From positions 6,504,743 through 6,568,742 of the forward strand of contig CM076962.1 in assembly GCA_039566865.1 (NCBI GenBank): a DNA stretch of 64,000 nt. The letters run 5' to 3'. Below, piece by piece: positions 25,890-52,647 of the stretch. A model generated the notes under the pieces. The model did no database searches. It was not told the origin of the DNA and saw only the letters and a program-made list of their open reading frames with translations. Position 1 is the first letter of the stretch. Each line of letters opens with the position of its first letter. Origin of the DNA: Aurelia coerulea (lineage: Eukaryota > Cnidaria > Scyphozoa > Semaeostomeae > Ulmaridae). The translations under genes were made by a program, and so were the position numbers.

Positions 25890-26309
25890 ACAACCCTTTC
25901 CGCCTCTGTGACCCCATCGGTCCCCGCACCAAAAATACGACCAAAAATAAAAATCACCCGATTGGCACCAAAATCGGTACAAAGTACCTTTTTGACCTGC
26001 TGATTTGAAATCTGGAGACCTTTTTTAGAAATTTTGTCACAAAAGTGGCACAAATGCACTTGAATGTCATAAAATGCTCTGCTGATTATCAAGAAAAATG
26101 TTCATCCGATTTCGACCATACTTGGTACAAAGTATATTTTGGACTTGCTGATGTCATGTCTCATAGCAGATGTGCCAAATAATTGTTACAAAATTGGCAC
26201 GAGTGCCCTAAAATGGGACATATAATGTTTGTCCCACACAGAAAATTCCAAAAAATTAAAGTCACCTGATTGGCTCCAAAATCGGTTAAAAGTAGAATTT
26301 GGACCTGCT

Positions 26310-27331
26310 CAGCCTCGTCCCCAGGGCCTTTTGTCATATTGGGACGGAGACGAAAAGGCACTGGGATCGGCTGGTCACATGGCCATCAATACACCCTCTC
26401 TCATTGGGTGTCATAAATTATAGAAATCATAATGTATGCAGCAGTTTACGTCAGGCTATGGCTGCTGCGTACTTGCTGCAGTTATAGTGGAATTGAATGA
26501 AGAAGACCAAACGGCTGAGGGCTCCAGGCTTCTGTCACTCTCTCAAGACTTGCAACTGGTTTTCATCGAATTATCAAAGTATTTCGCAAATTGAAAGCTG
26601 GTGAAGTGTTTTTGTGGCTCTGATGTGATTCGCCACTTTGCCAACCATCCTGCGCTCCAGTTGCTCCGGGATATTCTCCCATCAAAGTCTCTACAAGCAA
26701 CGTTGTGCTGTCGAAAAACAGATATTCTGCAAATTGTTGTTGTATTTGTTACTGAAACTTCTTTCAATTTGACTAGATATACTTTTCATTCACTTTGGTG
26801 TGGTCACACTGTCAACAAAACAAATGTCATTTTTAGTATAGGCCTATCACTTATAAACTTTGGAAGGAGTGATTTTACATTCACGGACTGCATGAACAAA
26901 ATCCAAGAAAAGTACCAATCTAAACCAGCTTCAAATTTGAGAATGTGTACGATTATTTCTGAGGTTGTTCAATTCCACCTAGTTCCGCTTTCCCGAAGGT
27001 ATTCAGCTTGTTATTCTAAACTGGGATAGGCAGTCTTTCTTCCATTGTTCTGAGCTTAGTTACTCCTTAGTTACGTGGCCATGAAATTCATGCATCAGCA
27101 CGCCTCTATGGCCCTGATTTCTCGGGATAAAGCAAATTAGTGCAAACTTCTGGAATAAACAATCTCCATTCATCAAAAGGGACACAAAGACTGACAACAA
27201 CGAGAAAATGGTTACACAGAACATAATTTGTGTGAAAAGCAATAGCAATCAGATTGCTTATGTGACCAGCCGATCCCAGGGCCTTTTCGTCTCCGTCCCA
27301 ATATGACAAAAGGCCCTGGAGACGAGGTTGG
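26310..27331. mobile_element. 1.02-kb hAT-like element with perfect 8-bp target duplication
   Basis: Begins CAGCCTCGTCCCCAGGG and ends CCCTGGAGACGAGGTTGG; long inverted ends include TGTCATATTGGGACGGAGA and GATCGGCTGGTCACATGG. GACCTGCT is duplicated exactly (26302-26309 and 27332-27339), cutting a 309-bp repeat unit. The interior holds a 142-codon open frame (26601-27029) starting MKCFCGSDVIRHFANHP that I cannot assign; it lacks obvious hAT DDE or BED motifs. A related end fragment lies at 38270-38360. Confidence 0.85.
26601..27029 (+). CDS. Unassigned 142-codon open frame inside the hAT-like element
   Basis: ATG at 26601, stop at 27027-27029. The composition is protein-like at first (MKCFCGSDVIRHFANHPALQ) but there is no domain I recognise. 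It could be a remnant of a transposase N-terminus, a captured host exon, or chance. No splice or promoter evidence was found. Confidence 0.2.
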   Translation: MKCFCGSDVIRHFANHPALQLLRDILPSKSLQATLCCRKTDILQIVVVFVTETSFNLTRYTFHSLWCGHTVNKTNVIFSIGLSLINFGRSDFTFTDCMNKIQEKYQSKPASNLRMCTIISEVVQFHLVPLSRRYSACYSKLG

Positions 27332-27866
27332 GACCTGCTGATTTCAAATCTGGAGACCATTTTTAAAAATTGTGTCACAAAAGTGGCACAAATGGATTTA
27401 AATGGCACAAAATACTCTCCTAATTATCAACAGGTAATGTTCATTCAATTTGGACCATACTTGGTATAAAGTATATTTCAGACTTACTGATGTCATGTCT
27501 CATAGCAGCTTTGCCAAAGAATTGTCACAAAACTGTCACAAGTGCCCTAAAATGAGACAATGTTTGTCCCACAAAGAAAAATGCCAAAAAGTAAAGGTCA
27601 CCGGATTGGCTCCAAAATCGGTATTAAGTACAAATTGGACCTGCTGATTTCAAATCTGGAGACCAGTTTGAACAATTTTGTCACAAAAGTGGCACAAATG
27701 GATTTTAATAGCACAAAATACTCTTCTAATTATCAACAGGTAATGTTAATTCAATTTGGGCCATACTTGGTATAAAGTATATTTCGGACCTGCTGATGTC
27801 ATGTTTCGTAGCAGCTTTGCCAAAGAATAGTCACAAAAACTGGCAGAATTTCCCTAAAATGGGACA

Positions 27867-29328
27867 GAATGTTTTTTTTTTTTTTTATATATTCCATTAA
27901 AAATTTACAATACAATGTTACGGACTACTCTACCACGAACTACTTTACAATACTACAAGGACGATGCCATGAGGAGCAAAAGACTATGACTACCCCATGG
28001 CGTTGTTTAAAAATGCTAACCTACATACAATTTTACATAAATACTACAAACAACTAAAAAAGAAAAACGATGCTTACTATTCTGTGGCCTGTCTAACATT
28101 AGATGTCAGGTTGGGGCTGTAATAACCAAAAAATTGTTCATTTTTTATTTGGATAGCATACCTGACATTTAATGTGAGACAGAAATTACAGACAAAAAGA
28201 AAATTTACTGAAAGGCACTTGGTGGGCACTTGGTGGTTGCATGGCATGTGACTGAAATTTGATATGATCTTAATCAAATCGACCAGTGTTGCGGATGAAT
28301 TGTATAGTAAGTTCGAGTATATTTCTATTTAGGTCATTAGACAGGTCTTGGTCACCATATAATAAAAGGTGCATTAGAAAATCGTTTGAAAGATTGCTGA
28401 TTTCAACAAATGGTCGTAGTATATCTGAAACTCCAGCGAGAAGATCTCGTCGTTGAATGTCAAATGAAGTGCACAGCAACAAAAAGTGCTCCGTATCCTC
28501 AATACCGTCATGCGTTGGGCACATTGGGTTTACGGTGTCCCTGAAATTATGCTTGAATTTGTGAAAGTTTAGTTTGCTGAGACCGACCCTTATTTGGGAA
28601 AGATATGATAGGCCTATTGGGTCATGAATACCAAATACAGGTTTTGGAGGGGGGCGAATTATTGATAGAAGCTTTGTCTTAAAAACAGCAACGGACGGTG
28701 CAAGCCTGACTTCAGGATCAAGTTTATTCCATTCGGAGATGCAGTTTGGATAGAAGCTAGATTGAAATTTTTCTGTTCTTACCTTTATTCGCCAAATAGC
28801 ATCCTGATTGCGAAGGGAGTAATTCGACACATGAATTGGTGGGATTGGCTCCTTTGTATACAACGGGGTGAGATTATTCATAATCTTATAAAACAAAGTC
28901 AGGCGTCTACTCCACCTTCGGGAACTTAGTGACTCCCAGCCAAGCTCTGTGTAAAGCTTTTCACGTGATGTTCCCCTCCATGTCCCTGTTACAGCAAGAG
29001 CAGGAGAATATTGAACAGACTCTATTTTTTCCATTAGATTTGGTAGTATGATGTTTTGACTGAATTCACATACTTTAGATGGAATATGATAGATAACGTC
29101 TCCATATTCCAGGTGGGGTCGTACATAGAGCTTATATAATTCGTTCAGGGTATGTCTGGGCAGATATTTGGAGAGATATTTTAGTAGACCAATGCCCTTT
29201 CTCGTTTTAGAGATAGCAGATTTAACATGAGCTGAGAAAGAAAGCTTTGAGTCCAGGATAATACCTAGATGTTTATGTTCATTTACTTTCTTAACGGGTA
29301 TGTTATTAAAGAGGATAACGGAATGTTT
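27867..29328 (-). mobile_element. LINE-C: 5'-truncated LINE insertion with 8-bp target duplication
   Basis: GAATGTTT occurs at 27867-27874 and 29321-29328, duplicating part of a 309-bp repeat unit. On the minus strand the insert starts abruptly within the RT thumb at 29320 and ends in a T run at 27872-27886, that is a poly(A) tail of the minus strand. The classic hallmarks of target-primed reverse transcription (5' truncation, A tail, short duplication) are all present, and the coding part is uninterrupted, so the insertion is relatively recent. Confidence 0.9.
28270..29320 (-). CDS. LINE-C reverse transcriptase, thumb and C-terminal domain (5' truncated, frame intact)
   Basis: About 350 codons without interruption, beginning inside FNNIPVKKVNEHKHLGIILD, the post-palm motif. 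Then come GIGLLKYLSKYLPRHTLNELY, YVRPHLEYGDVIYH, SVQYSPALAVTGTWRGTS, KLYTELGWESLSSRRWSRRL and YSLRNQ. The C-terminal part holds CPTHDGIEDTEHFLLLC, a C...H...C zinc-knuckle-like motif found at the end of many APE-type LINE RTs. It lacks the catalytic palm, so it is not active. The closest relative in the window is LINE-D, with the same order of blocks. Confidence 0.88.
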
Positions 29329-30370
29329 GTCCCACGAAGAAAAATGCCAAAAAGTAAAAGTCACACGATTGGCTCCAAAATCGGTATTAAGTACAAATTG
29401 GACCTGCTGATTTCAAATCTGGAGACCAGTTTAAACAATTTTGTCACAAAAGTGGCACAAATGGATTTAAATGTCACAAAATACTCTCCTTATTATCAAC
29501 AGGTAATGTTCATTCAATTTGGGCCATACTTGGTATAAAGCATATTTCGGACTTGCTGATGTCATGTTTCATAGCAGCTTTGCCAAAGAATTGTCACAAA
29601 ACTGGCACAATTGCCCTAAAATGGGACAGAATGTTTGTCCCACAAAGAAAAATGCCAAAAAGTAAAAGTCACACGATTGGCTCCAAAATCGGTATTAAGC
29701 ACAAATTGGACCAGTTTAAACAATTTTGTCAAAAAAGTGGCACAAATGGATTTAAATGGCACAAAATACTCTCCTAATTATCAACAGGTAATGTTCATTC
29801 AATTTGGACCATACTTGGTATAAAGTATATTTCAGACTTGCTGATGTCATGTCTCATAGCAGCTTTGCCAAAGAATTATCACAAAACTGGCTCAATTGCC
29901 CTAAAATGGGACAGAATTTTTGTCCCACAAAGAAAGATGCCAAAAAGTAAAAGTCACACAATTGGCTCCAAAATCGGTATTAAGTACAAATTGGACCTGC
30001 TGATTTCAAATCTGGAGACCAGTTTAAACAACTTTGTCACAAAAGTGGCACAAATTGATTTAAATGGCACAAAATACTCTCCTAATTATCAACAGGCAAT
30101 GTTCATTCAATTTGGACTATACTTGGTATAAAGTAAATTTCAGACTTGCTGATGTCATGTCTCATAGCAGCTTTGCCAAAGAATCCCTAAAGTGGGACAG
30201 AATGTTTTCTCCTACACAGAAAAATGACAAAAAATTAAGGTTGTTCGATTGGGTCCAAATTCGGTAAAAGTAGAATTTGGACCTGCTGGTATGAAATCCG
30301 GAAACAGTTTTTGAAAATTTTGTCACAAAGATGGCACAAATGCATTTAAATGGCAAAAAATACTTTTCTA

Positions 30371-30592
30371 CAATAATAAAATAATGAATTTCATTGCAAA
30401 ATTTTCAAAGAAGATCACTTTAAAATAGCTCGAAATGGCGAAAGTCAGGTAGATCACTATCAAATGGTTACGAAGCCGTCAAACAAAATCTGTTCAGCAT
30501 CAGATCTTGAGAAAAGGAGTTACTTTTTCCTTCCTAGGCGGCAGTCCCTTCCAAATCAGTTCACTACATAATTTGTTAGACTACCTATCGCA
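30371..30592 (+). repeat. Inner left arm of pB-1, outer part (before the RTE insertion)
   Basis: The sequence from TTGCAAAATTTTCAAAG to CCTATCGCA is the inverse of about 37120-37320 (GCAGTCCCTTCCAAATCAG against CTGATTTGGAAGGGACTGC). It ends at the RTE target duplication and continues after it at 33978. Confidence 0.8.
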
Positions 30593-30901
30593 CTTATGGC
30601 TCCAAGCACACGCTATCGGCCATATCCCGGCACCGTATCTCGGCTGACATGCCAAGCTAAGCGAGGGGCTAACCACTTTGTGGTGTAGTTAGGGGACGTC
30701 ACCCTTTATAGTGTGTGAAGATTGAGTCGGTGGAAGAGGCAGACGAACTCTATCAAAAGTCAATGGCTCTGAAGGCGTAATCAGCAAAATGTGTGACTCA
30801 TTAGGCATTCTGTGACGCTGAAGGAAAGTTTGGCCAGTCACCTTGGAAAGAATTGGGACTCTACCAAGTACAAGACCCATAGTTAGCTAGATATCATAGG
30901 A

Positions 30902-32641
30902 ATGACGAATAGAAATAACACGGATACAGAGAAAACTGGGACCCCTGCGGTCGACTCTGTTGAAAGCGACAGGGAAGGAGGATCTCATGAAAGGATAGCT
31001 AAGTTATCTGAAAGGATGGTAAATAATGACGAGGAAATTTTAAACTCTGATGAGCAGCTGACTTCTGAGGAGATTAATTTGAATGGAAATGGGACCCTCA
31101 TACGTTTAGGGGCATGGAATGCCCAGACCCTATATCAGGTTGGAAAATTTGATAACTGCTTGCAAGAAATGAACAGAATGGACATTGATATTTTAGGAGT
31201 GTCGGAAGTTAGATGAACAGATTCGGAGAGTATAGAAAAGGATGATCATGTAATGTATTTTTCTGGGGGTGAGAAACACGCAAATGGAGTAGGAATTATT
31301 ACCAAGAAGAAATACTCAAGAGCAACTGAAGGGTATCTAGCTCAGTCTGATAGAGTCATGATGGTTAAGATGGAAGGAAAACCATTCAACATTGTTATTG
31401 TTCAAGTTTATGCACCGACACAGCACCACAGTGAGGTTGAAATTGAAACTTTTTACGAAGACATCGAGAAATGTATGAGTCATGTATGCACAACGGATGT
31501 TGTCATACTTATGGGCGACTGGAATGCAATGGTGGGAGATGAAAAATTAGAGGATATAACTGGAGGTCACGGTCTTGGAACGCGAAATGAACGTGGAGAT
31601 AGACTGGTACAATTTTGTCAAGAAAAAGAACTCGTTATCACTAATACGTTTTTTAAACATCACAAGAGAAGATTATATACATGGGTCAGTCCAGGTGACA
31701 GATACAGAAGCCAGATTGACTATGTGATGATAAATAAAAGATTTAGAAATTGTGTGAAAAGCATTCGCACTTACCCAGGAGCTGACATAATGTCAGATCA
31801 TATCCTCCTGATGGCAAAATTGAAGATAAAACTGAAGCTACCAAGGAAATGCAAAAATAAACCGAAGTTTGATTTAGATCTTCTTAAAGAAGATGAATAC
31901 GAAGAGAAGTTTTCCATTGAAGTAAAAAACAGATATTCTGCATTGATCAATGAAATTCCAATTCAAATTGAGGATAATGAAATAGAAATAGAAAATGAAT
32001 GGAAATGTCTCAAAACAAGTATATTGGAAGCAGAAAAGAATTCACTTCCAAGAATAAAGAAAAAGAAGGATAAGAGTTGGATGACCAAAGAGATCTTAGA
32101 CCTTATGGATGCAAGGAGAAAAAAGAAGGGATCTCCCGATTATTATGAATTAGACACGAGAATCAAACAATTATATAAAAGGGAAAAAGAAAACTGGTAC
32201 AAAAATATGTGTGAAAACATTGAGCAACTTGAGGCAAATCACAAAATTAGAGAAATGCATGAAAATGTAAAGAAGCTTACAAACAGGAAGAAAAATGTAA
32301 GGACTGGAAGTGAATGCATCAAAGATAAGAATGGAAAAATCCTGTTTGAAAGAGAAAATGTTGCAAAGAGATGGGAAGAATACATAACGGAATTGTATGA
32401 AGATGTGAACAGAGATGATCCAATAGAAATTGAAAATGAGGATGGCCCAGAACTACTAAAAACAGAAATCAGACACGCAATAAAGATGATAAAGGGTGGC
32501 AAAGCTCCAGGTGCAGATAAAATTATGATAGAACACATGAAAGCGTTGGATGAAGAAGCGGTAGACATAGTGCTTAACTTATGTAAACAGATCTATGACA
32601 CAGGCATTATACCAGAAGACCTAAGACACACCTTCTCGTCA
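30902..32641 (+). pseudogene. RTE-like LINE endonuclease and linker
   Basis: ATG at 30902. Acidic N-terminus, then RLGAWNAQTLYQVGKFD, DILGVSEVR (catalytic Glu), GVGIITKK, VIVQVYAPTQ, ILMGDWNAMVG (Asp, Asn), YTWVSPGDRYRSQIDYVMI and MSDHILL (final Asp-His): a complete APE-type endonuclease. A TGA at 31214 replaces the Trp normally following EVR, the only stop in 1.7 kb. A charged linker (KKKDKSWMTKEILDLMDARR, YKREKENWY) leads to the RT fingers (GGKAPGADKI). The reading frame shifts near 32625. The encoded protein resembles those often mislabelled craniofacial development protein 2-like in animal genomes. Confidence 0.88.
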
Positions 32642-33961
32642 TAAAATTAGCGACAAAGCGTAAAGCTATGGAGTACACGGAACACCGCACAATTAGCTTA
32701 ATGAGCCACATGGTAAAAATTATGTTTAAAATTATACTGAATAGGAATGAGAAGAAAATAGATAATGAGATCGGAGAAATGCAATCTGGATTTAAGGCAT
32801 CAGTGGGAACGAGAGAAGGCATATTCAATTTAAGAGAAATTTTCGATAAATATCTTGGAATGAAGAAGAATGTGTGCGTATGCTTTATTGATTACGAAAA
32901 GGCTTTGACCGTGTCTACCACAAAGAGCTAATTGAAACAGTCAAACAAATAGTAAATGGATGGAAAAGATATAAGATTCATTCAAAACTTGTACTGGAAC
33001 CAATGTGCTAGCATCAAATTAAGAGAAGGAGAATCAAACAAGTTACAGATCAAAAGAGGCGTTCGTTAAGGCTGTATTTTGTCACCTAAGCTATTTAACT
33101 TGTACACAGAAGAGATTTTCAGGAAATCAGATAAGTTGCCAGGTATTAATATAGGTGGTAAAAATTTCACGAGTTTACGTTATGCTGATGACACAGCATT
33201 ACTGGCAGAGACAGAAGAAGCATTACAAGAAATAGTTGATTTAGTGAATGAAGAAAGTGCAAAGAAAGGTCTAAAAATGAATGTAAAAAAGACCAAAACC
33301 ATGGTAATATGTAGAAGTAAAGAAACACCTCAAATTGAGATTAATGTTGATGGTACCAACCTTGAGCAAGTGAAGCAGTTTAAATACTTAGGACAGCTAA
33401 TTACTGAAGATGGAAAAACTAACAGTGAGATAAGAAGAAGAACTGAGATAGCGCGCAAGAATTTTATGAATATGAAGGATACGTTAATATCAAGGAAATT
33501 GAGTTTAGAAAAGAAAGAAAAGGCTCGTTCGGTGCTACATCTTATCTATCCTTCTGTATGCGAGTGAAACATGGACAATCTCAGAAGAAGCGTGGGCAAA
33601 AATAGAAGCATTTGAAATGTGGATTTATCGGAAAATGTTAAGGATACCATATACAGCCCATATGACGAATAAGACAGTATTGCAATTAGCCAAAACAACT
33701 AGGTCCCTCAAAAGTGAAAAAAAGCATAGGAAAATAAGATACTTTGGGCACATAATCACAGCAAATAAGATACAAAAAACACTATTGACAGGAAAAGTAG
33801 AAGGCAAAAGGGGAAGAGGTCTTCCAAGGAGAACATGGGTCAATGACATCACACAGTGGACACAGAGAAGCATGATGCAATGCGTGCGAGAAGCTAACAA
33901 CAGAGAACAGTGGAGATATCTATCCGCAAATCTACCAGAGGTAGTCGCGACCAACAGGTAA
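32642..33961 (+). pseudogene. RTE-like LINE reverse transcriptase (frameshifted)
   Basis: Three frames together give EHRTISLMSHMVKIMFKIIL, QSGFKASVGTREGIFNLREI, VCFIDYEKA (first catalytic Asp), SPKLFNLYTEEIF, LRYADDTALLAE (catalytic pair), FKYLGQLITEDG, and, at the C-terminus, RIPYTAHMTNKTVL, RYFGHIITANKIQKTLLTGK and GKRGRGLPRRTWVNDI. Damage: frameshifts near 32625, 32902 and 33545 and a stop at about 33067 in the R-G-V-[KR]-Q-G block (Gln to TAA). Usual length for the family, so only point damage. Confidence 0.88.
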
Positions 33962-33977
33962 CAGGTAGCCTATCGCA

Positions 33978-34585
33978 GAGGATTTGCTGGAAATTTTAAC
34001 GCATTTCGTCCTTGGAGATGTTAAAGCATGGTTTCCAGATAGCCGTAAGATGGCGTAAGATGCCGTAAGATGCCGTAAGATGTTGTAAGGTTGCCGTTAG
34101 GTTGCCGCAGCCATTGCTGGAACTATTGCCGCTGGCATGCCGCAACCATTTCAACTTAAATAGAAACCACTGCTCCCAGTACCACCGGCAGCCACAACCA
34201 TGATGGTTGCGGTACCGTAACGACTTGGAAAAAGTTGAATCATTTCAACTTTACTCGATCTTTACGGTATCGTTTCCATTTCGATCGTTCGACTGCGGTA
34301 CCGGGGGCATGGATGGCAGAAGACTGCCGCCCGCAACCTTACGGCACCTTACGGCTATATGGAAACCAGGCTTAATATTCATAAAATACCATTGCAAGAC
34401 ATCTAAGAGTAACAATGTTAGGTATTTTAGTCACCGTTGTTCATCTCTTGTGACTGACTGCTTGCAACGTCGAATTCTCTCCTCGCGTGATAATTGTTCC
34501 AACAGTCTCTCCTTGTCTCAAATGAACATAGGACCAAGGGGTCACCAGGTTTTGAGCACTTTTCACATTTGAAATGGCATTGGCT
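33978..34585 (-). repeat. Inner left arm of pB-1 carrying an inverted copy of the transposase 3' end
   Basis: Repeats rich in GCCGTAAG / GGTTGCCG at 34030-34110 and CTTACGGC at 34340-34360 match 36770-37070 inverted. Beyond them, 34410-34585 is the reverse complement of the transposase C-terminal coding region and its stop (36545-36715): on the minus strand it gives LVLCSFETRRD-like and CWNNYH-like segments. So the left arm is an inverted duplicate of the right end, including coding sequence. Confidence 0.85.
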
Positions 34586-34773
34586 GTAATGTAGTCACAA
34601 AGTTTCTTTGTTAAAGTGTTAGGTTCCACAAATGACCAATTTTTTTGCAAGCAAAGCAGTTTGCAGTCTGGGTTCGAGTCTAGCTAAAGAAAGGCGGGAA
34701 ATTTCTTGCAAGTCTCGCGTCAGCATATTGTCCTTGAAGCAGAATGTGTTAATCTATGAGCTAATCTGTGATC

Positions 34774-36694: not shown

Positions 36695-37320
36695 AATATT
36701 TAGGCATTGTTACTCTTAGATTTTTTGCAATGGTATTTTATGAATATTAAGCCTGGTTTCCATATAGCCGTAAGGTGCCGTAAGGTTGCGGGCGGAAGTC
36801 TTCTGCCATCCATGCCCCCGGTACCGCAGTCGAACGATCGAGATGGAAACGATGCCGTAAAGATCGAGAAAAGTTGAAATGATTCAATTTCTTCCAAGTC
36901 GTTACGGTACCGCAACCATCATGGTTGCCCCTGACGGCGGTACTGGGAGAAGTGGCTTCTATTCAAGTTGAAATGGTTGCGGCATGCCAGCGGCAATGGT
37001 TCCGGCAATGGCTGCGGCAACCTAACGTCAACCTTACAGCTTCTTACAGCTTCTTACGGCATCCCAGGCTTTAACCTCTCCAAGGAAGAAATGCGTTAAA
37101 GTTTCCAGCAAATCCTCTGCGACAGGCAGTCTAAAAATTATGCAGTGAACTGATTTGGAAGGGACTGCCGCCTAGGAAGGAAAAGTAACTCCTTTTTTCA
37201 AGCTCTGGTGCTAAACAGATTTTTTTTGACGTCTTCGCAACCATTTGCTAGTGATCTACCTGACTTTCGCTACTTCGAGCCAATTTCAAGTGATCCTCTT
37301 TGAAACTTTTGCAATGGAAA
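36545..37320 (+). repeat. Inner right arm of pB-1
   Basis: Begins inside the transposase zinc-domain coding region and extends into the non-coding 3' part (CCGTAAGGTGCCG at 36771, GGTACCGCAACCATC near 36905, GCGTTAAAGTTTCC near 37095). It is the inverse of 33978-34585 plus 30371-30592, with no RTE in it, so it shows the pre-insertion state. Confidence 0.85.
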
Positions 37321-43092: not shown

Positions 43093-43820
43093 AAGTAAGG
43101 GTTTGTCCCGTAACGCTAAAAGAACATAATCATCTGCTCAGAAAAGATTGTTTAAACTTTTGCTTTGCTAAACGACAATGCCTTAGTTATTCCTGCTAAA
43201 GGCACTAATCACTGCAACGCTTAAGGTTACTATACGTTCTCTTTTTATAGGAGACCGCTTATAAGAAGCGGAAGGCTCAATTTTTTCAAAAGTTAAACAA
43301 CATCCTTATCTGAATTGAAAAAGCTAAGAAACTTTTGTAATTTGCAAAATGTTTTGTCAGTGTACAGTTATAGCAATTCTTTGGAAATTATTCTGAGTGC
43401 AAATTATGTTGTTTGCTGGTTTTTGGGATCTTGCTGGGTAATTTGGGAGCCCTCTTAACAAGGCTGAATTGGTTCTACACTTCCAGCATTGTGAGTATAT
43501 GAAACACATAAACTGTTGCTAGCAAAATGGCGCAAAACTTTAAGAAATTTCCTACCAGCATCGGACCTTGGTTTCTTAAAAAAAAAAAAAAAACCGATTT
43601 ATTATATTTGTTCTTTTTGTGGCTGTTGTCCTCGTTAATGTGACATTGATACCACACGTATGTGTTGGGTTGCTTACGAAACTTATGTTTTGGTTAAGAT
43701 AAGTAAAGACTACTGTGCATGTTTTCTGTGCGCTAATCTATTGAAGACTAGTTGCAAGCATGCTAATTTAATGGCTGATTATCGAGAAGAAGGTTAATCA
43801 TCGACAGTAGATGTTTATCC

Positions 43821-44000
43821 AAAGTTAATTTGGTGCCATTGAGTTGGTTGTTGCCCAAAGTTTACAAAGTTAATTGGGTGCCATTGAGTTGGTTGTTGCC
43901 CAAAGTTAATAAAGTTGATTGGGTGCCATTAAGTTGGTTGTAGCCCAAAGTTAATAAAGTTAATTGGGTGCCATTAAGTTGGTTGTAGCCCAAAGCGAAT
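43821..44000 (+). repeat. 45-bp minisatellite, four units
   Basis: GGTGCCATT recurs at 45-bp spacing (CCATT at 43836, 43881, 43926, 43971). The unit is about AAAGTTAATTGGGTGCCATT plus AAGTTGGTTGTTGCCC; the last two units share a GAGTT to AAGTT and GTTGCCC to GTAGCCC change. Stops occur in all plus frames. Confidence 0.92.
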
Positions 44001-44528
44001 TAGGCAGTCGTTGAGATGAGATGGTTGCCTGGTGAGCATTGAGATGAGATGTTTACCTTAAGTTAAGTTAATGAAATAGCCATCCATGAGGTGGTTGCCT
44101 GTTTTTATGGCGGAAGATAATTGAAGTAACCATCAAGATGAGGTGAGTCCCTGTTTAGAGGGTTGTAAAGGGTATTTCGTGAAACGTGATCTGCAATATT
44201 TTTGGCCATATTTTCTTCTCGTGAAACGCGAAAAGCCAGTGTTTATTGACTTTAAACGAGTAAACGCTATATTCTTTGTGAAATTGAACATTTTATTTTC
44301 GTGATTCATGATCTTCACCCCCTTTACCATCCTCTGTTTATGGTGGATTGATATCAAATTCAAATAAGTTTACAACAACAGCAATGGAAGATGATTGCAC
44401 GGCCCGCTGTAAATCAGTCCTTTGACTGACGTGGCCACCATGCCTAAAGAAATTAAAATCAAATCAAATCAAATCAAATTGGAATCATGTTGGAATGGCC
44501 ATCGAGATGAGGTGGTTACCTGTTTATA

Positions 44529-44850
44529 GCGGTATTTTGGCAATCGTGTGAGTTTAGATGTTGCCTTGCAAATGTTTTTTCACTTCTCGCAGGACGATAA
44601 AACAAAGAAATCTTAATCAGTTTACTTGGTTTGTAGCAGTATTTTGGCAATCGTGTGAGTTTAGATGTGCCTTGCAAATGTTTTTTTTTCGTCTCTCGCA
44701 GGACGATAAAACGAAGAAATCTTACTCAGTTTACTTCGTTTATAGCGGTATTTTGGCAATCGTGTGAGTTTAGATGTGGCCTTGTGAATGTTTTTTCACT
44801 TCTCGCAGAGCGATAAAACAAAGAAATCTTACTCAGTTTACTTTGTGCAT
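44529..44850 (+). repeat. ~108-bp tandem repeat, three units
   Basis: GCGGTATTTTGGCAATCGTG (second unit GCAGTA...) starts at 44529, 44636 and 44745. Each unit includes GATGTGCCTTGCAAATG, a T run, CTCGCAGGACGATAAAACAA and TCAGTTTACTT. Small length changes in the T run break any shared frame. Confidence 0.9.
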
Positions 44851-45011
44851 AAAAACTAAAAGCAAATTTTATCTAAAGAGGCTAAGCCGAGCTGGCCGAG
44901 CCAAACAAGAAATGCCAGCATGGGGTGTTCTCTCATCTTCGGTAGGGGTCCGGGAGGCTACATTCTCTTTCTCGGATATTTGGGGGTTGGGGGAACACAT
45001 GTGTTCTGTGG

Positions 45012-45220
45012 TGGAGAAAAAATCTAAACATTTTTCTCTAACCCCCAACTATTTCGGTTGCGGCGGGAGTGCACATTTGACCAGTGCATTTGAAATCCCA
45101 AACTTTGGCCCCGGTGATGAGAGAACACTGCCATTGGTATCTGGCAACTGGCAAATTTTATATTTGTGATTGTTCTCAGCTCTGAGGGGCCACATTATTT
45201 TTTCTCTGAAGCAAGAATTA
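45012..45220 (+). repeat. ~210-bp direct repeat, block B
   Basis: Near-identical to 45911-46120 (TGGAGAAAAAATC to AAGCAAGAATTA). Block A' begins directly at its right end, while the other copy is followed by LINE-D, so the junctions record a duplication or template switch. Confidence 0.88.
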
Positions 45221-45814
45221 AATAGGGATAAGAATGAAATTTTATATCCCAGTTAATTCGCGGAAGATGCTGCGAGCGTTCGTTTATAAAGGTGTCCCAC
45301 AACCTTGTTACGATTCATTTGGCTATGATGTGCGTAACTACACGTATCACTCAATTATCAGCAGATCGTTTTATTCACTTTTCTAATAATTTAGCACGCT
45401 GCATGCATTGCGTCTTGTTGTTTTTGCAAACGAAAACTTTTCAGCAGTCAGTTTTTGTGCTCGGTGATTCGTAAATTTGTTCGTTGTTACATGCGTAAAA
45501 ACACGTATCACTCAATTCCCAGAAGATTGTTTATTCACTTTTTGAATTATTTGGAACACTGCTTGCCTCGCATTTGGCTGGTTTTTAAAAGAATACTTTT
45601 ACCAGAAGCGTAGAAATAGGTTGACCAACAAAGCAGTCAATCTTTCGCAGTATGCGTTTGTAGACAATAGATTTGGAAATCTTTCGATTTGGTTTTCGCA
45701 TTCAGTTTAAAAGCCAAAATTGTGTCAAGTTGCCTTCGCATTTGGACATTGGAAGCAAAGCAGAAAGGCGTGGTAAAGATCTGGCATTTCGTAAGGTTTT
45801 GCGATTTCTTTCAC
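45221..45814 (+). repeat. 594-bp direct repeat, block A'
   Basis: Second copy of 39329-39922. It abuts block B on the left; on the right it changes abruptly at CTTTCAC into unrelated sequence. Confidence 0.85.
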
Positions 45815-45910
45815 CCGCCCACCCACAACCTAAGCTAAAATCGTACCATGCTCCTTTATTTCATGACAGGGATGTCTGTCTCTGCCATGGACATTGAGTG
45901 CACTGGTTTG

Positions 45911-46120
45911 TGGAGAAAAAATCTAAACATTTTTCTCTAACCCCCAACTATTTCGGTTGCGGCGGGAGTGCACATTTGACCAGTGCATTTGAAATCCCAA
46001 ACTTTGGCCCCGGTGATGAGAGAACACTGCCATTGGTATCTGGCAACTGGCAAATTTTATATTTGTGATTGTTCTCAGCTCTGAGGGGCCACATTATTTT
46101 TTCTCTGAAGCAAGAATTAA
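45911..46120 (+). repeat. ~210-bp direct repeat, block B' (3' boundary of LINE-D)
   Basis: Second copy of block B. LINE-D coding sequence stops resembling its relative LINE-C exactly at this boundary, so B' replaced or followed the natural C-terminal end of LINE-D. Confidence 0.85.
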
Positions 46121-47466
46121 TGTACTCTAAAAAAGCTTCAAGAATCAGTCTGTTGACAATGTGTGGAAGTTCAGAACTTCCATACAACATCAGTGAGCAA
46201 ACGAAATCGTCATCAAAGTTGGATACATCCAAGCTCAGAATTTCCGAGAGCTGGCCAAGGAAGTTTCTGCGAAGATGATCAAACAAGGGGCAATGCAGGA
46301 GGAAATGCTCATTATCCTCGTTCGCGGTACCGCAATTGCATAGTGGACTTACGATGTTGAATCTTGCCTAAACCTATGCTCATTTAATGCACTGAATTTC
46401 AAACGCAACTTTGTTAAGATTCTAGCACACTCTATATCATAAAAGCTATATACGGAGTTTTCAGTTGGCCTTATTTTGGAAAGGAGTTTTCGCTTAAATT
46501 CAGCAATAGATTTGCAACTTTTGATATCTCTATCAAGTAAATTCCATTCATAAGGGGCATTACAGAAATATGTGTTAGAAAAACGGACAGTTTTACTAAT
46601 AGACGGAGTGTATATGCGCTGATTTCTAAGATCATAGTTTGTTTGCCGTTCAGCAGGGATTTCATTGAAGAGATATTCAGGAGATTGGTTATTTTTTAGG
46701 TTGAAGAAATGACATAAGCGTCGGTACCATCTTCTACTGTACAGGGTTTCCCAGCCTAATTCATTGTAAAGTCTTTGCCTATTTGTACCCCTCCATGCAC
46801 CAGACACAGCTAGTGCTGCAGAGTATTGAGTTTGTTCCAGTTTTTGAGAAAAACCTAGTCGCATTTCAGGGTCATATTTATGGTACAACAGGTCACCATA
46901 GTCAAGATGAGGGTAGGTTAAATTAAGGACAGTTCTAGAGACATACTTGGAGAGATATTTTATAAGCCCAATTCCTCGCCTTGCCTTTAGGATGGCTGCT
47001 CTGATGTGACTCTGAAAGTTTAATTTTGAATCCAAAATCATTCCTAGATGCTTGTGTTCGTTTTCCCGCTTAACTTCATGGTTGCCTAGCTGTAAAGGTG
47101 GGTGGACAATTCTAGTTATTTTGGTAGAGAAGATAACTTCTTCGGTTTTATCCGTATTGAACTGCATTTTCCATTGCCATGCCCAAAGCCGTATTTTCTC
47201 AAGATCTCGATTCGATTCTTCAGCGCCGACAATCTCGTTTTCAATCACCGAAAACAAAGAAGTATCATCTGCAAATAGCCTGACATCACTATTCAGGTTG
47301 TCACAAAGATCATTTATATAAATAAGAAAAAACAAAGGACCCAGCACGGACCCTTGCGGTACTCCTGCAAGTACATCCTTCCACTCTGAAGTCTTCCCAT
47401 TCAAAACCACTCTTTGTTTCCGATTCATCAAAAAGTTGCGAATAAGAGCAAGTATGTTACCAGATA
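46121..47466 (-). pseudogene. LINE-D reverse transcriptase, palm to zinc-knuckle C-terminus
   Basis: Reads LALIRNFLMNRKQRVVLNG, VLAGVPQGSVLGPLFFLIY, VRLFADDTSLFS (catalytic FADD), LWAWQWKMQFNTDKTEEVIF, NEHKHLGMILDSKLNF, GIGLIKYLSKYVSR, YPHLDYGDLLYH, YSAALAVSGAWRG and LYNELGWETLYSRRW. A frameshift near 46350 precedes CNCGTANEDNEHFLLHC, the C-C-H-C zinc-knuckle-like motif, and LFDHLRRNFLGQ. The frame is otherwise open for 408 codons. It runs out at block B'. Confidence 0.9.
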
Positions 47467-48238
47467 CATTAAGTACAAAAATTTTCGGCGGATAAAATTT
47501 CGGACAATAAACTTCGGCGAAAATATTTTCGGACACATTTTTGGTATTTCGGACAAATAAATTTTCGGACAACATTTTTGACTAGTCTTTAGATCATTTA
47601 TGCAATATCACAGCAGCTTTTAAATTTATTGAAACAAAACATCTTCATAAAGTTTGGAATAGAGCCGTAGCATGTCCTAAAGTCCCTTCTAGCATAAAAT
47701 TTTCTAAAGTAGAATAGCAAAAAATTCACCGATTTTCTTGTTTCTATTCGTATTCGTCAATTTTTTGTATACTTGCTTTAAATTGTACTTGGTTGTCATA
47801 GGCACTTTAAATCTGCAAAAGGGTCTCCTTGTTCTGTGTCGTTTTGATAGCATCATTAATTTTGGCCATTTTGATATGAATTCTTTTCGAATTACATCAG
47901 CAATAGTGAGAACATGTAAATGGTGGTAGACGAAGAGGACTTTGTTGTTACTTGTTCTGACCATATGTTCTGACTATGACAATAATATTGGATTGGAACC
48001 GTATTCTTCAAAAACTTTGCATGTTTACAATAACCTTTCGTGACGTGCTGGAGATTCGATTTCAGGTTTCTTGTCTTGGTTCCAATTTTGGGCATTAAAT
48101 TCGCACTACGCATGCGCATATGTATGCAAAAATTTTCGGCGCGATAAATTTTCGGACAACTACATATTTCGGACAAATAAATTTTCGGACAAGTCTTTGT
48201 CCGAAAGTTTGTCACGCCGAAAATTTTTGCACTTAATG
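47467..48238. mobile_element. 772-bp TA-target MITE with TTTTCGGCG termini
   Basis: Ends CATTAAGTACAAAAATTTTC and GAAAATTTTTGCACTTAATG are inverted repeats, with GGCG next to them. TA flanks both sides (47465-47466 and 48239-48240), and LINE-D rejoins in frame as KCNGV then SGNILAL. The motif ATTTCGGACAA is repeated many times near both ends (47490-47575 and 48145-48200), like subterminal transposase sites. Confidence 0.88.
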
Positions 48239-48883
48239 TACTCCATTACATTTAAGTTTATGGATAAGTCTCTCATGCCATACCCTATCAAATGCCTTTG
48301 ATAGGTCAAGGAAAACTGCCCGTGTTTCTTTGTTCGGAGTATCGTCAAACGCACAGTAAATCTTATGAGTTATAAACAATAATTGATTTATGGTGGAGTA
48401 TCCAGGTCGGAAACCAGATTGGTTAGGCGTTAGTAATTGACTTTCACTCAAATGACTGTAGATTGCATCAAATAGCAGTTTTTCAAAAATCTTAGAAAAA
48501 ATAGGAAGCAAAGAGATTGGACGATAGTTAGTTTTGCATTGCCGACTCCCCTTTTTATGAATTGGAACAACATTTGCTTTCTTCCAAGAAGAAGGATAGA
48601 TACCAGTCTCTATGCACCTTTCAAAGATCATACACAAAGGTTCAACGATTGCATCATCACATATCTTAATCATAGTAACAGAAACGTCATCACATCCATG
48701 GGATTTACTGGAATCAAGGGCTTGAATGAGCTTCAGCACCCTTTCCCTGTTAATATCAAGATGCTGCAGGGTTGGAACAAAGTTTTGCACAACATTAGGT
48801 ATACTACTTGATGTTCCTGCTGAACAACACTGTGCTACAAAGTAATCATTCAGCACATTTGCTTTAGTTTCAAAATTCACCAC
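48239..48883 (-). CDS. LINE-D reverse transcriptase, fingers and catalytic DLSKAFD block
   Basis: Uninterrupted frame: ETKANVLNDYFVAQCC, KSHGCDDVSVTMIKI, YPSSWKKANVVPIHKKGS, NYRPISLLPIFSKIFEKLL, LLTPNQSGFRPGYSTINQLL, VFLDLSKAFDRVWHERLIHKL. These are RT blocks 0 to A with the first catalytic Asp. The sequence continues past the MITE at 47466. All key residues are present. Confidence 0.9.
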
Positions 48884-49048
48884 GAAAAGCCCATTTTCAA
48901 GTATCGGGGGAATATTTGGATGTTTTTTGTTGCCAGTCAGCCTGTTTAATGAAGACCAAAATGCTTTAACACCAGTATTAGGGTCTGAGAGTTTTCTGCT
49001 TAATTCTAATTTCTGGAAATAGCTTTCTTTGGCATTAGCGATTAATTT

Positions 49049-50105
49049 TTAAGTTGATTTACGAACTTCCTTTACGTTTTCCCAGTCCTCCATCCTTTTA
49101 CCTCTTTGCACAAACTTCTTGTAAACCCTGTGCTTTCGCTTTATTGCACTTTTCACTTCATGAGATATCCAGGGAGGGTCTTTGTCATTAAACCGCATCA
49201 TTTTATTAGGTATATTTTCTGAAAAAATAGATTTCAATATATCGTAAAGTTTATCTGTCATTTCATTAGATCCCATGCCATGGAAGCAATGATGCCAATT
49301 TACGTTTCTTAAACTATTTCTTATATTCAAAATATCAGCCTTGGGATAATCCCAAACAGTTCCTTTATATTGGGGTGGAAAGGGAATGGCTATATTTAGT
49401 TTCTCATAGATAATTTGATGTTGACAGAAATTATCTAAGGATGGGTTTACACCAGTCTCAACAAAAAAAGCAGGTTGGTCTGTTATTATCAGGTCAATAC
49501 AGGACATACTGTCTCCTCTTATTTTCGTGGGTTCATCAATCAATTGATATAGATTATTAGTTTCAATGAGTTCATCTAAGTCACTCCCCCCAGGTTTTTC
49601 AGTGTCCCCATGCCACCATTGGGACGATCTACAATTAAAATCTCCTGTCAATATTAACGCATGTGGTTTTTCTGCCTTTAGTTTACTGACAATGGATTGT
49701 AACCTATCCATGAACAATGCAAATTGCCCGCTATCCTGACTTGGGCTGTGATAAACAGTAACAAAGAATACTTTTTTGCGAGAGATAGATGCCTCTGTGA
49801 CAATAATTTCTTGCAACAGCTCAAATTCTTTTCTGCGCTTGATTGGCCATATCTTCCCGATAATACAAACAAACGCCTCCAGTTTTAGTGTTACATGGAT
49901 GATCATTGCGGTAAATTTCATTACTAAATCCTTCAATAATAATTTGATCATTGCTTATCGTACTATCCAACATGGTCTCTGAGAGGGCAATGATATCAAG
50001 ATGATGAACTGAATTGTAAGCCTCAAGCAAAGAAATTTTTATTTTATCCCTCGCACAAATACTATTGAGGTTCCAGTTACAAAAGTTCAAAATCTTGCTT
50101 CGTTC
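49049..50105 (-). pseudogene. LINE-D APE-type endonuclease and linker
   Basis: Begins right after the 2A-like motif with ILNFCNWNLNSICARDK, then DIIALSETMLDS (catalytic Glu), GGVCLYYRED; a frameshift near 49860; then RKKVFFVTVYHSPSQDS, LILTGDFNCRSSQWW (Asp, Asn), SCIDLIITDQP, and a region with DNFCQHQIIY where S-D-H-x is usual, so the last catalytic Asp-His pair looks altered to C-Q-H. The linker reads PPWISHEVKSAIKRKHRVYK. The frame ends at 49049; 48884-49048 carries a further frameshifted piece. Confidence 0.85.
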
Positions 50106-50129
50106 AGGTCCAGGATTTGTTTCAATATC
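50106..50129 (-). promoter_or_regulatory. 2A-like translational recoding motif (DIETNPGP) of LINE-D
   Basis: Minus-strand codons spell YSGDIETNPGP, matching the D-x-E-x-N-P-G-P consensus of 2A-like peptides, at which the ribosome skips the Gly-Pro bond and releases the upstream product. Such motifs are known in trypanosome and invertebrate LINEs, just before the endonuclease, exactly as here. The upstream ORF is now separated by a frameshift in an AT repeat. Confidence 0.85.
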
Positions 50130-50143
50130 CCCGCTATATAATA

Positions 50144-50578
50144 TTATATGATATATATAATATTTTGAAGGTAGGCAAGATACAGGCTAATTTGCATTGC
50201 AAACAGAGAGAGACGTAAGAAATGTTTCCGACAAAGAATTTTCGTTACAACCAACTTTGCGCATTGTCTTGTCATGGTAGCCATGAAGAAAACGTGAACA
50301 ACCACGAGGGGCGTGATAAACATGTAAATTTTAACTGGATCTGGAATATTTAGCACCTCTTCATTGACAGAATCCAGTGAATAATAAAGGAACCCAGCAA
50401 TAATTATAGAAATAGGAATAGTAGAAACCGATGCCCATAGGAAAAGATACAAATAGGCAATAGAACGAATACAATTTGAGACAATGCATCCAATTGGAAA
50501 ATTTTTCGTTATTTTGAGAAGTATATGAATCCCACCGGAAGCTATTCCTGCACGCCACTGTTCAATTCCTATTGGCAT
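50144..50578 (-). CDS. LINE-D N-terminal ORF, multi-pass membrane protein of unknown function
   Basis: ATG at 50578 (complement of CAT at 50576-50578), 144 codons, beginning MPIGIEQWRAGIASGG. Three hydrophobic segments are visible: about residues 40-68 (SIAYLYLFLWASVSTIPISI), 84-104 (IYMFITPLVVVHVFF) and 123-144 (LSLFAMQISLYLAYL). No RRM, zinc-knuckle, coiled coil or SGNH block is seen, unlike usual LINE ORF1s. It ends in an ATAT-rich run; a one-base shift in that run would fuse it to the 2A-like motif. It was probably the first product of the LINE-D polyprotein. An unrelated host gene here is less likely, given the spacing. Confidence 0.6.
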   Translation of the reverse strand: MPIGIEQWRAGIASGGIHILLKITKNFPIGCIVSNCIRSIAYLYLFLWASVSTIPISIIIAGFLYYSLDSVNEEVLNIPDPVKIYMFITPLVVVHVFFMATMTRQCAKLVVTKILCRKHFLRLSLFAMQISLYLAYLQNIIYII

Positions 50579-50579
50579 T

Positions 50580-51370
50580 AAGTATATCCATCTCCCTGGC
50601 CACTCAGAATTTCAATAAACAACAACCGTTGAAAACAGGCTAACTTCGTGAAGACAAAGGAACATGGACGACGTAACAAGTAAAAGAAAAACATACAGCA
50701 CTTAAAACACTTACAACAACATATGTAACACAAAGAGGGCATTGACACCATTTCACCAGGGGAATGGCAAGTCATACGCTAGGGGATTGATTCATGAGCT
50801 TGGCGGCTTTGTGTATATCATTTCATTGTTTAAGATAAACTCTACTGTATATTGTAATTTCAAAAAGAAAGCAATGAACTTTTCAATTCAAGTGGATAAA
50901 CAACGTCGTAGCGGAGGAAAATTTATACCGCGCGGTGTGTTTGCTCGATTCCTTTCGCGTGAGATTTTTAAAAGCTGGCTGAGAAGTATTGCCAAACTAT
51001 AGTCGAAGCAAAAACCTAAAATTAAAACAACATTGTCTTGAACAAAACAAAGTGATACTATTTATTTTTCTTCCTTGCGAGAGACCGAGGTACTATTTAA
51101 GAAAAAAAGACATGGAACCAAATAGGGCAGGGTGAGGCAATTTAATCCAGGTTTAAATTGAGCAAAAACCTCTACCATACTCGCTTTTACGAGGAAGAAT
51201 ATTCGTATATAACAAAACAATTTAAATATTCCCATTTTATCTCCCGCAGTTTCACATTACCACATCCTTTCCCTAACCCATCAAATGATCGTCTGACAAC
51301 ACAAAATAAACACAATATATAGTTACCACGGTCTGGAGAGGAAAATTAGATATACGGAAAAAGATGATCA
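50580..51370. other. Possible LINE-D 5' leader and unassigned sequence
   Basis: No clear gene. The stretch next to the membrane ORF (50580-50800) may be leader or promoter of LINE-D. The rest, including the 86-codon plus-strand frame at 50742-51002, has no recognised domain. Confidence 0.3.
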
Positions 51371-51373
51371 GTT

Positions 51374-51464
51374 CAGTCTTCTGAGCCTTGGTCTATTGTA
51401 TCTAATTTTTCTTTCAAATCGTCCATGGAGTCAAAAAAGATGAAATCTCCATTTGCCAGTTTTG
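51374..51464 (-). pseudogene. Short C-terminal coding fragment ending in TGA, origin unknown
   Basis: Minus strand from about 51458 gives ANGDFIFFDSMDDL, KEKLDTIDQGSED and a stop near 51376. The acidic, protein-like wording suggests the last exon of a gene or the end of an ORF, cut by the 309-bp repeat at 51465. No upstream part was found in the window. It may be chance, but 28 codons of non-random wording at a boundary are worth recording. Confidence 0.3.
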
Positions 51465-51477
51465 TGAAACATGACAT

Positions 51478-52610
51478 CAGCAAGTCCGAAATATAATTTG
51501 TACCATGTATGGTCCAAATTGGATGAACATTACTTGTTGATAATTAGGGAAGTATTTTGTGCCATATAAATGCTTTTGTGCCATCTTTTTGATAAAATTT
51601 CCTAAAAATTTTTCCGGATTTGAAACCAGCAGGTCCAAATTCTACTTTGTACCGAATTTGGAGCAAATCGAATAACCTTGATTTTTTGTCATTTTTCTGT
51701 GGGACAAAATATTCTGTCCCACTTTAGGGCACTCATATCAGTTTTGTGCAATTCTTTGGCAAAGCTGCTATGAGACATGACATCAGCAAGTCTGAAATAT
51801 ACTTTATACCAAGTATGGTCCAAATTGGATGAACAGTACTTGTTGATAATTAGGGAAGTATTTTGTGCCATATAAATGCTTTTGTGCCATCTTTTTGATA
51901 AAATTTTCTAAAAATTTTTCGGGATTTGACACCAGCAGGTCCAAATTCTACTTTGTACCTAATTTGGAGCAAATCAAATAACCTTGATTTTTTGTCATTT
52001 TCCCGCGTGGGACAAAATATTCTGTCCCACTTTAGGGCACTCATATCAGTTTTGTGCAATTCTTTGGCAAAGCTGCTATGAGACATGACATCAGCAAGTC
52101 TGAAGTATACTTTACACCAAGTATGGTCCAAATTGAATGAACATTACCTGTTGATAATTAGGAGAGTATTTTGTGCCATTTAAATCCATTTTTGCCACAT
52201 TTGTGACAAAATTTTTAAAAATGGTCTCCAGATTTGAAATCAGCAGGTCCAAATTGTACTTTTTACCAATTTTGGAGCCAATCGGTTGACTTTAATTTTT
52301 TTGGCATTTTCTGTGTGGGACAAACATTATATGTCCCATTTTAGGACACTCGTGCCAGTTTTGTAACAATTCTTTCGCACATCTGCTATGAGACATGACA
52401 TCAGCAAGTTCAAAATATACTTTGTACCAAGTATGGTCAAAATCGGATGATAATTACCTCTTGATAATCAGCAGAGCATTTTCTGACAGTCAAGTGCATT
52501 TTGTGGAAAATTTCTAAAAATGGTCTCCAGATTTGAAATCAGCAGGTCAAAATTGTTCTTTTTACTGATTTTGGAGCCAATCGGGTATTTTTTTTGTCGT
52601 ATTTGTGGTG
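51478..52610 (-). repeat. ~309-bp tandem repeat, right arm of pB-1 (minus orientation)
   Basis: About 3.6 units inverse to 25950-30370. CAGCAAGTCYGAAATATA starts lie near 51478, 51783, 52092 and 52402, a spacing of about 305-310 bp. The outermost part (52560-52643) mirrors 25894-26000 down to the terminal CCCTTTCCGCC. Confidence 0.87.
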
Positions 52611-52647
52611 TGGGGACCGATGGAGACGCAGAGGCGGAAAGGGTTAA

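Follow-up and report, generated by a model that had tools for sequence, protein, structure and literature searches.

Positions 25894–52643 of the window, the whole 64,000-nucleotide stretch of DNA analysed here, hold a single DNA transposon of piggyBac type that five nested insertions have split into pieces. The element is very probably a foldback-type piggyBac transposon, now dead and interrupted by many nested sequences; an origin and a working are proposed below. The span of 26.75 kb, labelled giant in the first-pass annotation, results from the nested insertions; without the five of them approximately 7.1 kb remains, close to the 7 kb estimated there, and an un-nested copy elsewhere in the genome measures 5,977 bp.

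Structure of the window element

The extent of the element is based on end matches and self-alignment. The features are as follows.

25890–25893 (+): left flank ACAA, TTAA expected
25894–52643 (unstranded): whole element including nested insertions
25894–26309 (+): left tip with the first of the 309-bp units; matches 52242–52643 in inverse orientation, 88%
26310–27330 (unstranded): nested element 1; target duplication GGACCTGCT, by eye
27331–27875 (+): left array, second block
27876–29317 (−): nested element 2, LINE-like fragment, T-run at left border
29318–30394 (+): left array, third block
30388–30592 (+): outer piece of left inner arm; matches 37118–37321 in inverse orientation, 90%
30593–33965 (+): nested element 3, probably a non-LTR retrotransposon; endonuclease domain
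33966–34574 (+): left inner arm, inner piece, ending at the arm breakpoint
34028–34372 (+): MITE of left arm, also in right arm; ends GGTTTCC..GGAAACC, borders by eye
34427–34574 (−): final 148 bp of the transposase gene, as an inverted copy
34575–36546 (+): single-copy centre between the arm breakpoints
34774–35760 (+): piggyBac transposase, N-terminal and first catalytic part (PF13843)
35834–36694 (+): piggyBac transposase, C-terminal part with Cys-rich end, aligned to relatives
36547–37372 (−): right inner arm, beginning inside the transposase gene; MITE at about 36750–37064
37373–37548 (−): right array, innermost block
37549–38737 (unstranded): nested element 4; further copies at 12699–13651 and in locus L007
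38738–38833 (−): right array, middle block
38834–51464 (−): nested element 5, 12.6 kb, reverse-transcriptase frames
51465–52643 (−): right array, outer block and right tip
52644–52647 (+): right flank TTAA

No RNA families or tRNA are found within the window.

The 15-bp end sequence is present exactly at 25894–25908 (+) and 52629–52643 (−), as had been claimed, and these are the sole matches in the window at up to 3 mismatches; shuffled sequence gives a mean of 0.49 matches, with two or more in 7 of 100 shuffles. The terminal repeat is not limited to 15 bp, however. The inverted similarity of the outer arms (tips and first units) continues for 420 bp at 88% identity and, once nested inserts are left out, for more than 2 kb into the transposase gene. 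The description of the ends as TTAA-type holds for the right flank of the window copy but not for the left, where ACAA is found. CCC tips are common to all three subfamilies distinguished here (CCCTTTCCGCCTCTG, CCCTTTCCGCCTTTG and CCCTCTACGGCCCAGCG).

Self-alignment shows the two arms, of about 2.8 kb (left) and 2.3 kb (right), to be mutual inverted copies from the tips inward to a breakpoint within the transposase gene. The 309-bp arrays, with 6–7 units in the left arm and 4–5 in the right, are oppositely oriented in the two halves of the element, which bears out the earlier reading of inverted arms of about 2 kb or more made of this repeat. The 309-bp unit is an old dimer of approximately 150 bp, and the tip-proximal sequence matches it. 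Dyads in the unit, sought as a sign of binding sites, are at chance level. Both arms also contain the same MITE and share the final 148 bp of the transposase gene, of which one arm has an inverted copy. The inner arm pieces show 90% and 93% identity between arms, and divergence ranges from 3 to 10% across eight aligned segments (overall 7.2%, 104 of 1,445 sites). Half-units pair by position at the array edges (L1–R1 92%, L2–R2 92%, L3–R3 97%, innermost 94%), with separate expansions in each arm between them.

Transposase

The proposal of a central piggyBac transposase is confirmed by PF13843 (DDE_Tnp_1_7) in the N-terminal piece, with 32.4 bits against a cut-off of 22.4; the C-terminal piece alone gives no Pfam match. 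The gene is broken into 2–3 frames and carries a 124-bp internal duplication. The motifs IDEGR, VMDSGFPT (identified by eye in the nucleotide sequence) and GWED (relatives have GWVD), which we take to be the three catalytic Asp positions of piggyBac transposase, are present together with the Cys pattern in three broken frames. PF13843 is found in 12 of 12 relatives of the transposase, and three other Pfam families match one relative each (E 0.004–0.008). Pfam shows no THAP domain in the window transposase or the relatives. Neither transposase piece singly matches a PDB sequence, but a profile of the relatives matches piggyBat (4.8e-11), and fold matches at E < 0.001 are to piggyBac and piggyBat only (6x67, 9c0f). 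No relatives are found in viral_contigs or genome_contigs, searches from which records of the window's own or near genomes were possibly excluded.

Other copies in the genome

A search of the window's own genome (574 Mb) for the exact 15-bp end pattern gives 12 sites, the reversed control none. At 11 of these an array begins within about 60 bp inside the end; the exact end at L024 has no array. One exact pair exists, 5,977 bp apart (L032), and seven further pairs of a one-mismatch form lie 4.8–6.6 kb apart, so that paired ends near the expected distance do occur. An end pair on C9 spans 17.1 kb, and its inside was left out of the analysis.

L032 is the copy free of nested insertions that the first-pass annotation proposed to look for. 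It lies between TTAA sites and shows arrays and the MITE in both arms, the inverted ORF tail, and centre boundaries that match 34575 and 36546 of the window to within 1–2 bases. From the arms and breakpoints that L032 shares with the window element at another place, between TTAA sites, it follows that the armed form arose a single time and was afterwards mobile as a whole, unless L032 is a segmental duplicate of the window locus. With the same exception, L032 refutes a one-off, in-place inverted duplication of a short-ended piggyBac in which the satellite would be host DNA picked up locally. The dead transposase and mismatched flanks of the window element would suit such an event, which is nevertheless very unlikely in view also of the satellite inside 11 of the 12 exact ends. 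L032 and L035 have no complete transposase frame.

Long inverted arms with internal tandem repeats are seen in the window element and in eight two-tipped elements (L032–L039). Among exact or one-letter-variant ends in L024–L038, 18 of 22 are flanked by TTAA (17 of 21 places when the one common to L031 and L032 is counted once); the four remaining flanks are TTAC, TGTT, TTAG and TAAA. TTAA is present on both sides in L032–L036, L038 and the L027/L028 pair, and also in L039, which has an additional A on its left side; L037 has TTAA/TAAA. These flanks bear on the possibility that the window element joins the ends of two separate insertions through ectopic recombination, a process described for Galileo. 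Such joining would explain ACAA opposite TTAA and is consistent with inverted 1.2-kb clusters on both sides; change of at least 2 of 4 flank bases by mutation alone is about 3–7% likely at 7–12% per site. However, since ends elsewhere also show a changed TTAA, mutation may suffice for ACAA, and pairing between the left and right tips is roughly as good as elsewhere in the arms. A chimera is considered improbable.

Sister and third subfamilies

The seven one-mismatch pairs represent a sister subfamily, of which five were sampled (those at C5:3.32 and C11:23.87 Mb were left out). Arrays of a 150-bp unit are found in both arms of 5/5 copies, flanks are TTAA/TTAA in 4/5, and a 632-codon stop-to-stop transposase frame is open in 3/5. 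The four other copies are 97.2–98.9% identical to L033. A third subfamily, sampled through one copy (L039), has arrays with the different tips CCCTCTACGGCCCAGCG; no transposase is detectable in this single copy. The satellite accompanies nearly all exact ends but is not tied to one 15-mer, because L039 carries it with another TTAA end. Across elements the arms are 0.8–2.8 kb long and consist largely of tandem repeats, with unit numbers that vary between arms and between copies. The joint occurrence of ends, TTAA and satellite elsewhere, the un-nested copy and the open sister frames uphold the suggestion of a foldback-type piggyBac lineage.

The further suggestion that the element is the source of a dispersed satellite finds no support among the candidates scored. 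The longest contiguous array among 141 matches (26 clusters, tips known for 12) is 1,757 bp, and no long free array is found among the 40 of 68 candidates scored, in assemblies of a kind that collapse satellites. A 23-mer of the satellite gives no match in viral_contigs, where records of the window's own or near genomes were possibly excluded.

Core motif and proposed working

A 20-bp core recurs at steps of approximately 150 bp in all nine elements examined, with 14 copies in the window element and 12–19 per element in L032–L039, against a background of 11 in 230 kb of other slices. The count is partly circular because the core was picked from these same arrays, and some repeats lack it at the threshold used. 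Orientation is without exception inward, left-arm cores being + and right-arm cores −. The first core (near GGTAAAAAGTACCTTTTTGA) lies about 77–94 bp from each tip, except in L039, where about 231 bp separate each tip from the first core recognised. The spacing is similar to the amount of DNA wrapped in a nucleosome core.

The sister 150-bp unit aligns with the first unit of L032 with a score of 60 (best of 1,000 shuffles, 34). An earlier comparison of this unit with half-units gave p 0.07–0.08 because the half-unit cut split the shared stretch; the match is clear with the terminal 400 bp. The terminal 400 bp of the third subfamily match the unit weakly (14 of 1,000 shuffles as good), and internal 309-bp units match it at chance level (112 of 1,000). 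The 309-bp consensus and that of the third subfamily agree at 49 of 49 positions in a stretch spanning the unit junction, against 83% overall.

It is plausible from these sequences that the cores form an array of putative transposase-binding sites. Alternatively, the arrays may have no role in transposition and be by-products of slippage or unequal exchange in long arms, kept by conversion between the arms. The differing unit numbers and arm-specific expansions, the chance-level dyads, the chance-level match of internal units to the sister repeat, and arrays without detectable transposase in the sole third-subfamily copy fetched all agree with by-products. The conserved junction stretch does not, nor does a core with one orientation and regular steps in all nine elements, recognisable across subfamilies whose remaining repeat sequence failed to align. 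An origin of the arrays as by-products carries considerable weight, though not enough to be called probable.

With respect to origin, one arm would have been copied over the other by conversion or template switch. The tract would have extended into the gene and included its final 148 bp together with a MITE inserted earlier; unequal exchange may afterwards have altered unit numbers separately in each arm. In the proposed working, the transposase would cut at CCC/TTAA while its Cys-rich C-terminal domain, or another DNA-binding part, docks on the core about 77–94 bp from the tip and on further copies at steps of approximately 150 bp inward. Many docking sites per end would help bring the two ends together. 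It is tentatively suggested that a piggyBac lineage independently evolved the Foldback/Galileo design, each end being a phased array of 5–12 inward putative transposase sites at approximately 150-bp spacing that forms a higher-order end complex, and that in the sister subfamily a foldback transposon may still be alive, its transposase functional.

Comparison with known systems

Likeness to the piggyBac superfamily is seen in the PF13843 transposase, the 6x67/9c0f fold, the CCC tips, the TTAA target and the Cys-rich C-terminus. In the coral element AmiPB1, which is 3,668 bp long with 13-bp repeats and a 601-aa transposase, the tip is similar (CCCTTTCCCGTCC; PMC2872659). In a survey of piggyBac elements, drawn on here in excerpt, terminal inverted repeats are mostly under 20 bp and the longest is 528 bp (PMC10813416); the arms described here differ from both in their 0.8–2.8 kb of largely tandem repeats. 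In the open-licence PMC literature, judged mostly by title and abstract, no piggyBac with kilobase tandem-repeat arms was found. Foldback/Galileo architecture itself is already known; no report of it for piggyBac was found in open-licence PMC.

The excerpted sources place Drosophila Foldback and the Mutator/Foldback elements mostly in the Mutator superfamily (PMC3573991, PMC3688188, PMC4079207) and Galileo, a foldback element, in the P superfamily (PMC3573991, PMC3688188). Galileo has a P-type transposase with a THAP domain, whereas the window element has PF13843 and no THAP. Drosophila Foldback and the Mutator/Foldback elements Tm1 and Phantom share the foldback architecture. Tetris, a foldback element of D. 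virilis suggested to belong to Mutator, has repeats of about 220 bp that share sequence with the terminal domain and also occur as satellite arrays with as many as 66 copies, with no transposase known according to the excerpted text (PMC4079207). As in Tetris, tip-proximal sequence here matches the unit; unlike Tetris, no long free array is seen among the candidates scored.

The purpose of foldback repeat arms has been hard to establish, partly because no fully functional Galileo had been identified as of 2013, as far as the excerpted text goes (PMC3688188). Unlike Galileo, the sister copies are near-identical and have an open transposase frame that may be active. A foldback-type piggyBac family with near-identical copies, TTAA on both sides and an open frame makes binding to, and trimming of, the repeats directly testable. 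In the window element and L032, the arm has also extended into the element's own gene and has later been transported to another site. The family would add piggyBac to the superfamilies with foldback architecture.

Extent of the element and its nested insertions

Only two matches to the 15-bp end are found in the window, at 25894 and 52643, even when three mismatches are allowed. Window self-comparison shows the element halves as mutually inverted copies, interrupted by five nested insertions.

Nested insertions found by self-comparison
26310–27330: insertion 1
27876–29317: insertion 2; a piece matches genome slices L004 and L007
30593–33965: insertion 3
37549–38737: insertion 4, from a ~1-kb family whose ends are, by eye, of the GATTACAAAGT type; sits in the right array
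38834–51464: insertion 5, 12.6 kb

Read by eye, the borders of insertions 1, 2, 3 and 5 repeat a stretch of satellite or arm sequence, which is what insertions are expected to show. Insertion 4 has further copies at window positions 12699–13651 and at 714–1757 of L007, an unrelated genome slice. With the inserts removed, ~7.1 kb remain: a left arm of ~2.8 kb, a 1,972-bp centre and a right arm of ~2.3 kb. Insertion 5 also contains direct duplications, 39323–39922/45215–45814 (99.5%) and 45011–45221/45910–46120 (100%).

The element is flanked by two mutually inverted clusters of ~1.2-kb tandem units (21524–25466 and 52951–55722), about 96–100% alike. These contain palindromic TAACCACGGG blocks as well as 222-bp MITE copies, and three of their four borders fall at a MITE edge. 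A 144–164-bp tandem repeat near the window's left end (841–1517 and 5637–6182) has copies that also form inverted pairs, 87–99% identical.

Transposase

The window transposase consists of two long frames with a 124-bp internal duplication. The first frame matches PF13843 above cut-off; the second alone gives no Pfam match. The search gave 26 relatives with up to 65% identity, and the 12 that were aligned all match PF13843. A profile built from these 12 finds piggyBat. The predicted structure of one relative (mean pLDDT 66) has fold matches with E <0.001 only to piggyBac 6x67 and piggyBat 9c0f. With its two frames, its duplication and its changes at residues invariant among the 12 relatives, the window copy is dead.

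Structure and origin of the arms

The tips and first units of the two arms align over 420 bp at 88% in self-comparison. The inverted copy goes on inward of the arrays, 30388–30592 matching 37118–37321 (90%) and, innermost, 34059–34574 matching 36547–37063 (93%). It ends within the transposase gene, thus the left arm bears the last 148 bp of the gene, inverted. A MITE with GGTTTCC/GGAAACC ends occupies the same position in both arms and so predates their becoming alike. Between-arm divergence is 3 to 10% over eight aligned segments, with 104 of 1,445 sites differing.

Units were compared as 20 half-units plus one fused unit, each >100 bp. Half-units at matching positions, counted L1–L3 in the left and R1–R3 in the right array, show 92% (L1-R1), 92% (L2-R2), 97% (L3-R3) and 94% (innermost) identity; mid-array units resemble neighbours of the same arm. 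This is the pattern expected of arms that arose by inverted duplication and then underwent unequal exchange independently.

The two halves of the 309-bp unit align with a score of 46 (1,000 dinucleotide shuffles: 17.8 ± 2.7, maximum 32), which marks the unit as an old dimer. The region ~30–100 bp inward of the tips corresponds to the final portion of the second half-unit, with scores of 60 and 49 (maxima of 1,000 single-base shuffles, 31 and 28), thus every unit contains a copy of the subterminal region.

Other copies in the genome

In the 574-Mb assembly, where the window spans C20:6504743–6568742, the 15-mer end occurs 12 times and its reversed control 0 times. The array begins within about 60 bp of the end at 11 of the 12 sites, the sole exact end without one being C3:14584627 (slice L024). 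Exact ends form three inward pairs (spans of 26.7, 17.1 and 5.98 kb) and six singles. Among the two-mismatch matches listed, the near-end 15-mer CCCTTTCCTCCTTTG shows several pairs ~208 bp apart in outward order on contig C1 of this genome (G000), perhaps an unrelated MITE family.

L032, a 5,977-bp copy of the window form, is flanked by TTAA left and right. It has arrays of 3.3 and 4.5 units, the arm MITE on both sides and the inverted ORF tail. Its centre matches the window centre in three pieces (95%, 95% and 99%), with borders equal to window 34575/36546 to within 1–2 bases. Arms, MITE, ORF tail and centre borders are thus common to both, which argues that the armed structure predates the two insertions and was transposed as a whole. 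L035 (3,376 bp) is a deletion copy: it keeps both arms and TTAA on each side but, of the gene, the C-terminal part alone.

The CCCTTTCCGCCTTTG form of the end, one mismatch allowed, gives seven inward pairs with spans of 4.8–6.6 kb. Five of these (L033, L034, L036, L037 and L038) describe a sister subfamily. In every one of the five, the arms consist of 150-bp repeats (about 4.6–7 units on the left and 6–11 on the right); four are flanked by TTAA on both sides and one by TTAA/TAAA. A 632-codon stop-to-stop frame is found in L033, L034 and L037; in one of the remaining two copies it is split over two frames, and the other is missing the 5′ part. L033 is 97.2–98.9% identical to the other four over 3.3–5.7 kb. 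The transposase of L033, L034 and L037 shows 92% identity to the protein P0005, which comes from other public sources; this hints at close relatives or recent between-host spread.

L039, one copy of a third form, has CCCTCTACGGCCCAGCG tips adjoining TTAA and arrays built from the 309-bp family, 6.2 and 4.7 units long; no transposase match is found in it. In the search table, an L039-like layout of comparable identity appears at C2:9.13, C11:13.07 and C1:30.60 Mb.

Distribution of the satellite

A search with the 309-bp unit, 40 of 68 candidates scored, gave 141 matches in 26 clusters, with no contiguous array >1,757 bp among them. Nine clusters show both orientations, always forward then reverse, and 17 a single one. 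Tips were checked for 12 clusters: 11 adjoin an end with ≤1 mismatch and one more lies at the third-form tips (L039). Three of the other 14 show the inverted layout. The satellite was absent from a genome sample of 23 slices (230 kb including 5 kb N; 21 slices from one contig). The satellite thus appears, as far as seen, mostly or wholly element-bound in assembled sequence; large unassembled blocks may exist.

A core motif in the repeats

The sister 150-bp unit and the first L032 unit have ~70 bp in common (score 60, equalled by 0 of 1,000 shuffles); the remainder did not align. Against internal 309-bp units the match was below significance (112 of 1,000 shuffles as good), and against the third-subfamily end it was weak (14 of 1,000). 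The 309-bp and third-subfamily consensus sequences are 83% identical overall and identical at 49 of 49 places across the unit junction.

The core GGTAAAAAGTACCTTTTTGA, scanned with ≤5 changes, occurs 12, 13, 13, 13, 13, 14, 17 and 19 times over the eight copies L032–L039, 14 times in the window element, out of 16 across the whole window, and at 11 places in the 230-kb sample. In the window element and L032–L039, every left-arm core is forward and every right-arm core reverse. The distance from tip to first core is 77–94 bp in the window element and L032–L038, and about 231 bp in L039. Spacing is ~150 bp, some repeats of the 309-bp forms being missed by the scan. The pattern is only suggestive because the motif was chosen from these same arrays; the oriented, spaced core is a candidate site.

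Comparison with known elements

Foldback architecture has been described for P (Galileo) and, according to PMC3573991, PMC3688188 and PMC4079207, otherwise mostly for Mutator elements. A survey gives piggyBac TIRs as mostly <20 bp, maximum 528 bp (PMC10813416). Coral piggyBacs show 13–16 bp repeats (PMC2872659); tandem arrays within a Xenopus piggyBac-type MITE are cited in a passage of the same paper. No piggyBac with kilobase tandem-repeat arms was found in searches of the open-licence PMC literature.

Units holding a copy of the subterminal region closely recall those of Tetris. For the core, a tip-near site recurring in arm repeats, Galileo is the parallel: its arms lengthen via recruitment of internal sequence and change in repeat number (PMC3573991), and the THAP domain of its transposase binds both ~70 bp from the tip and within the arm repeats (PMC3688188).
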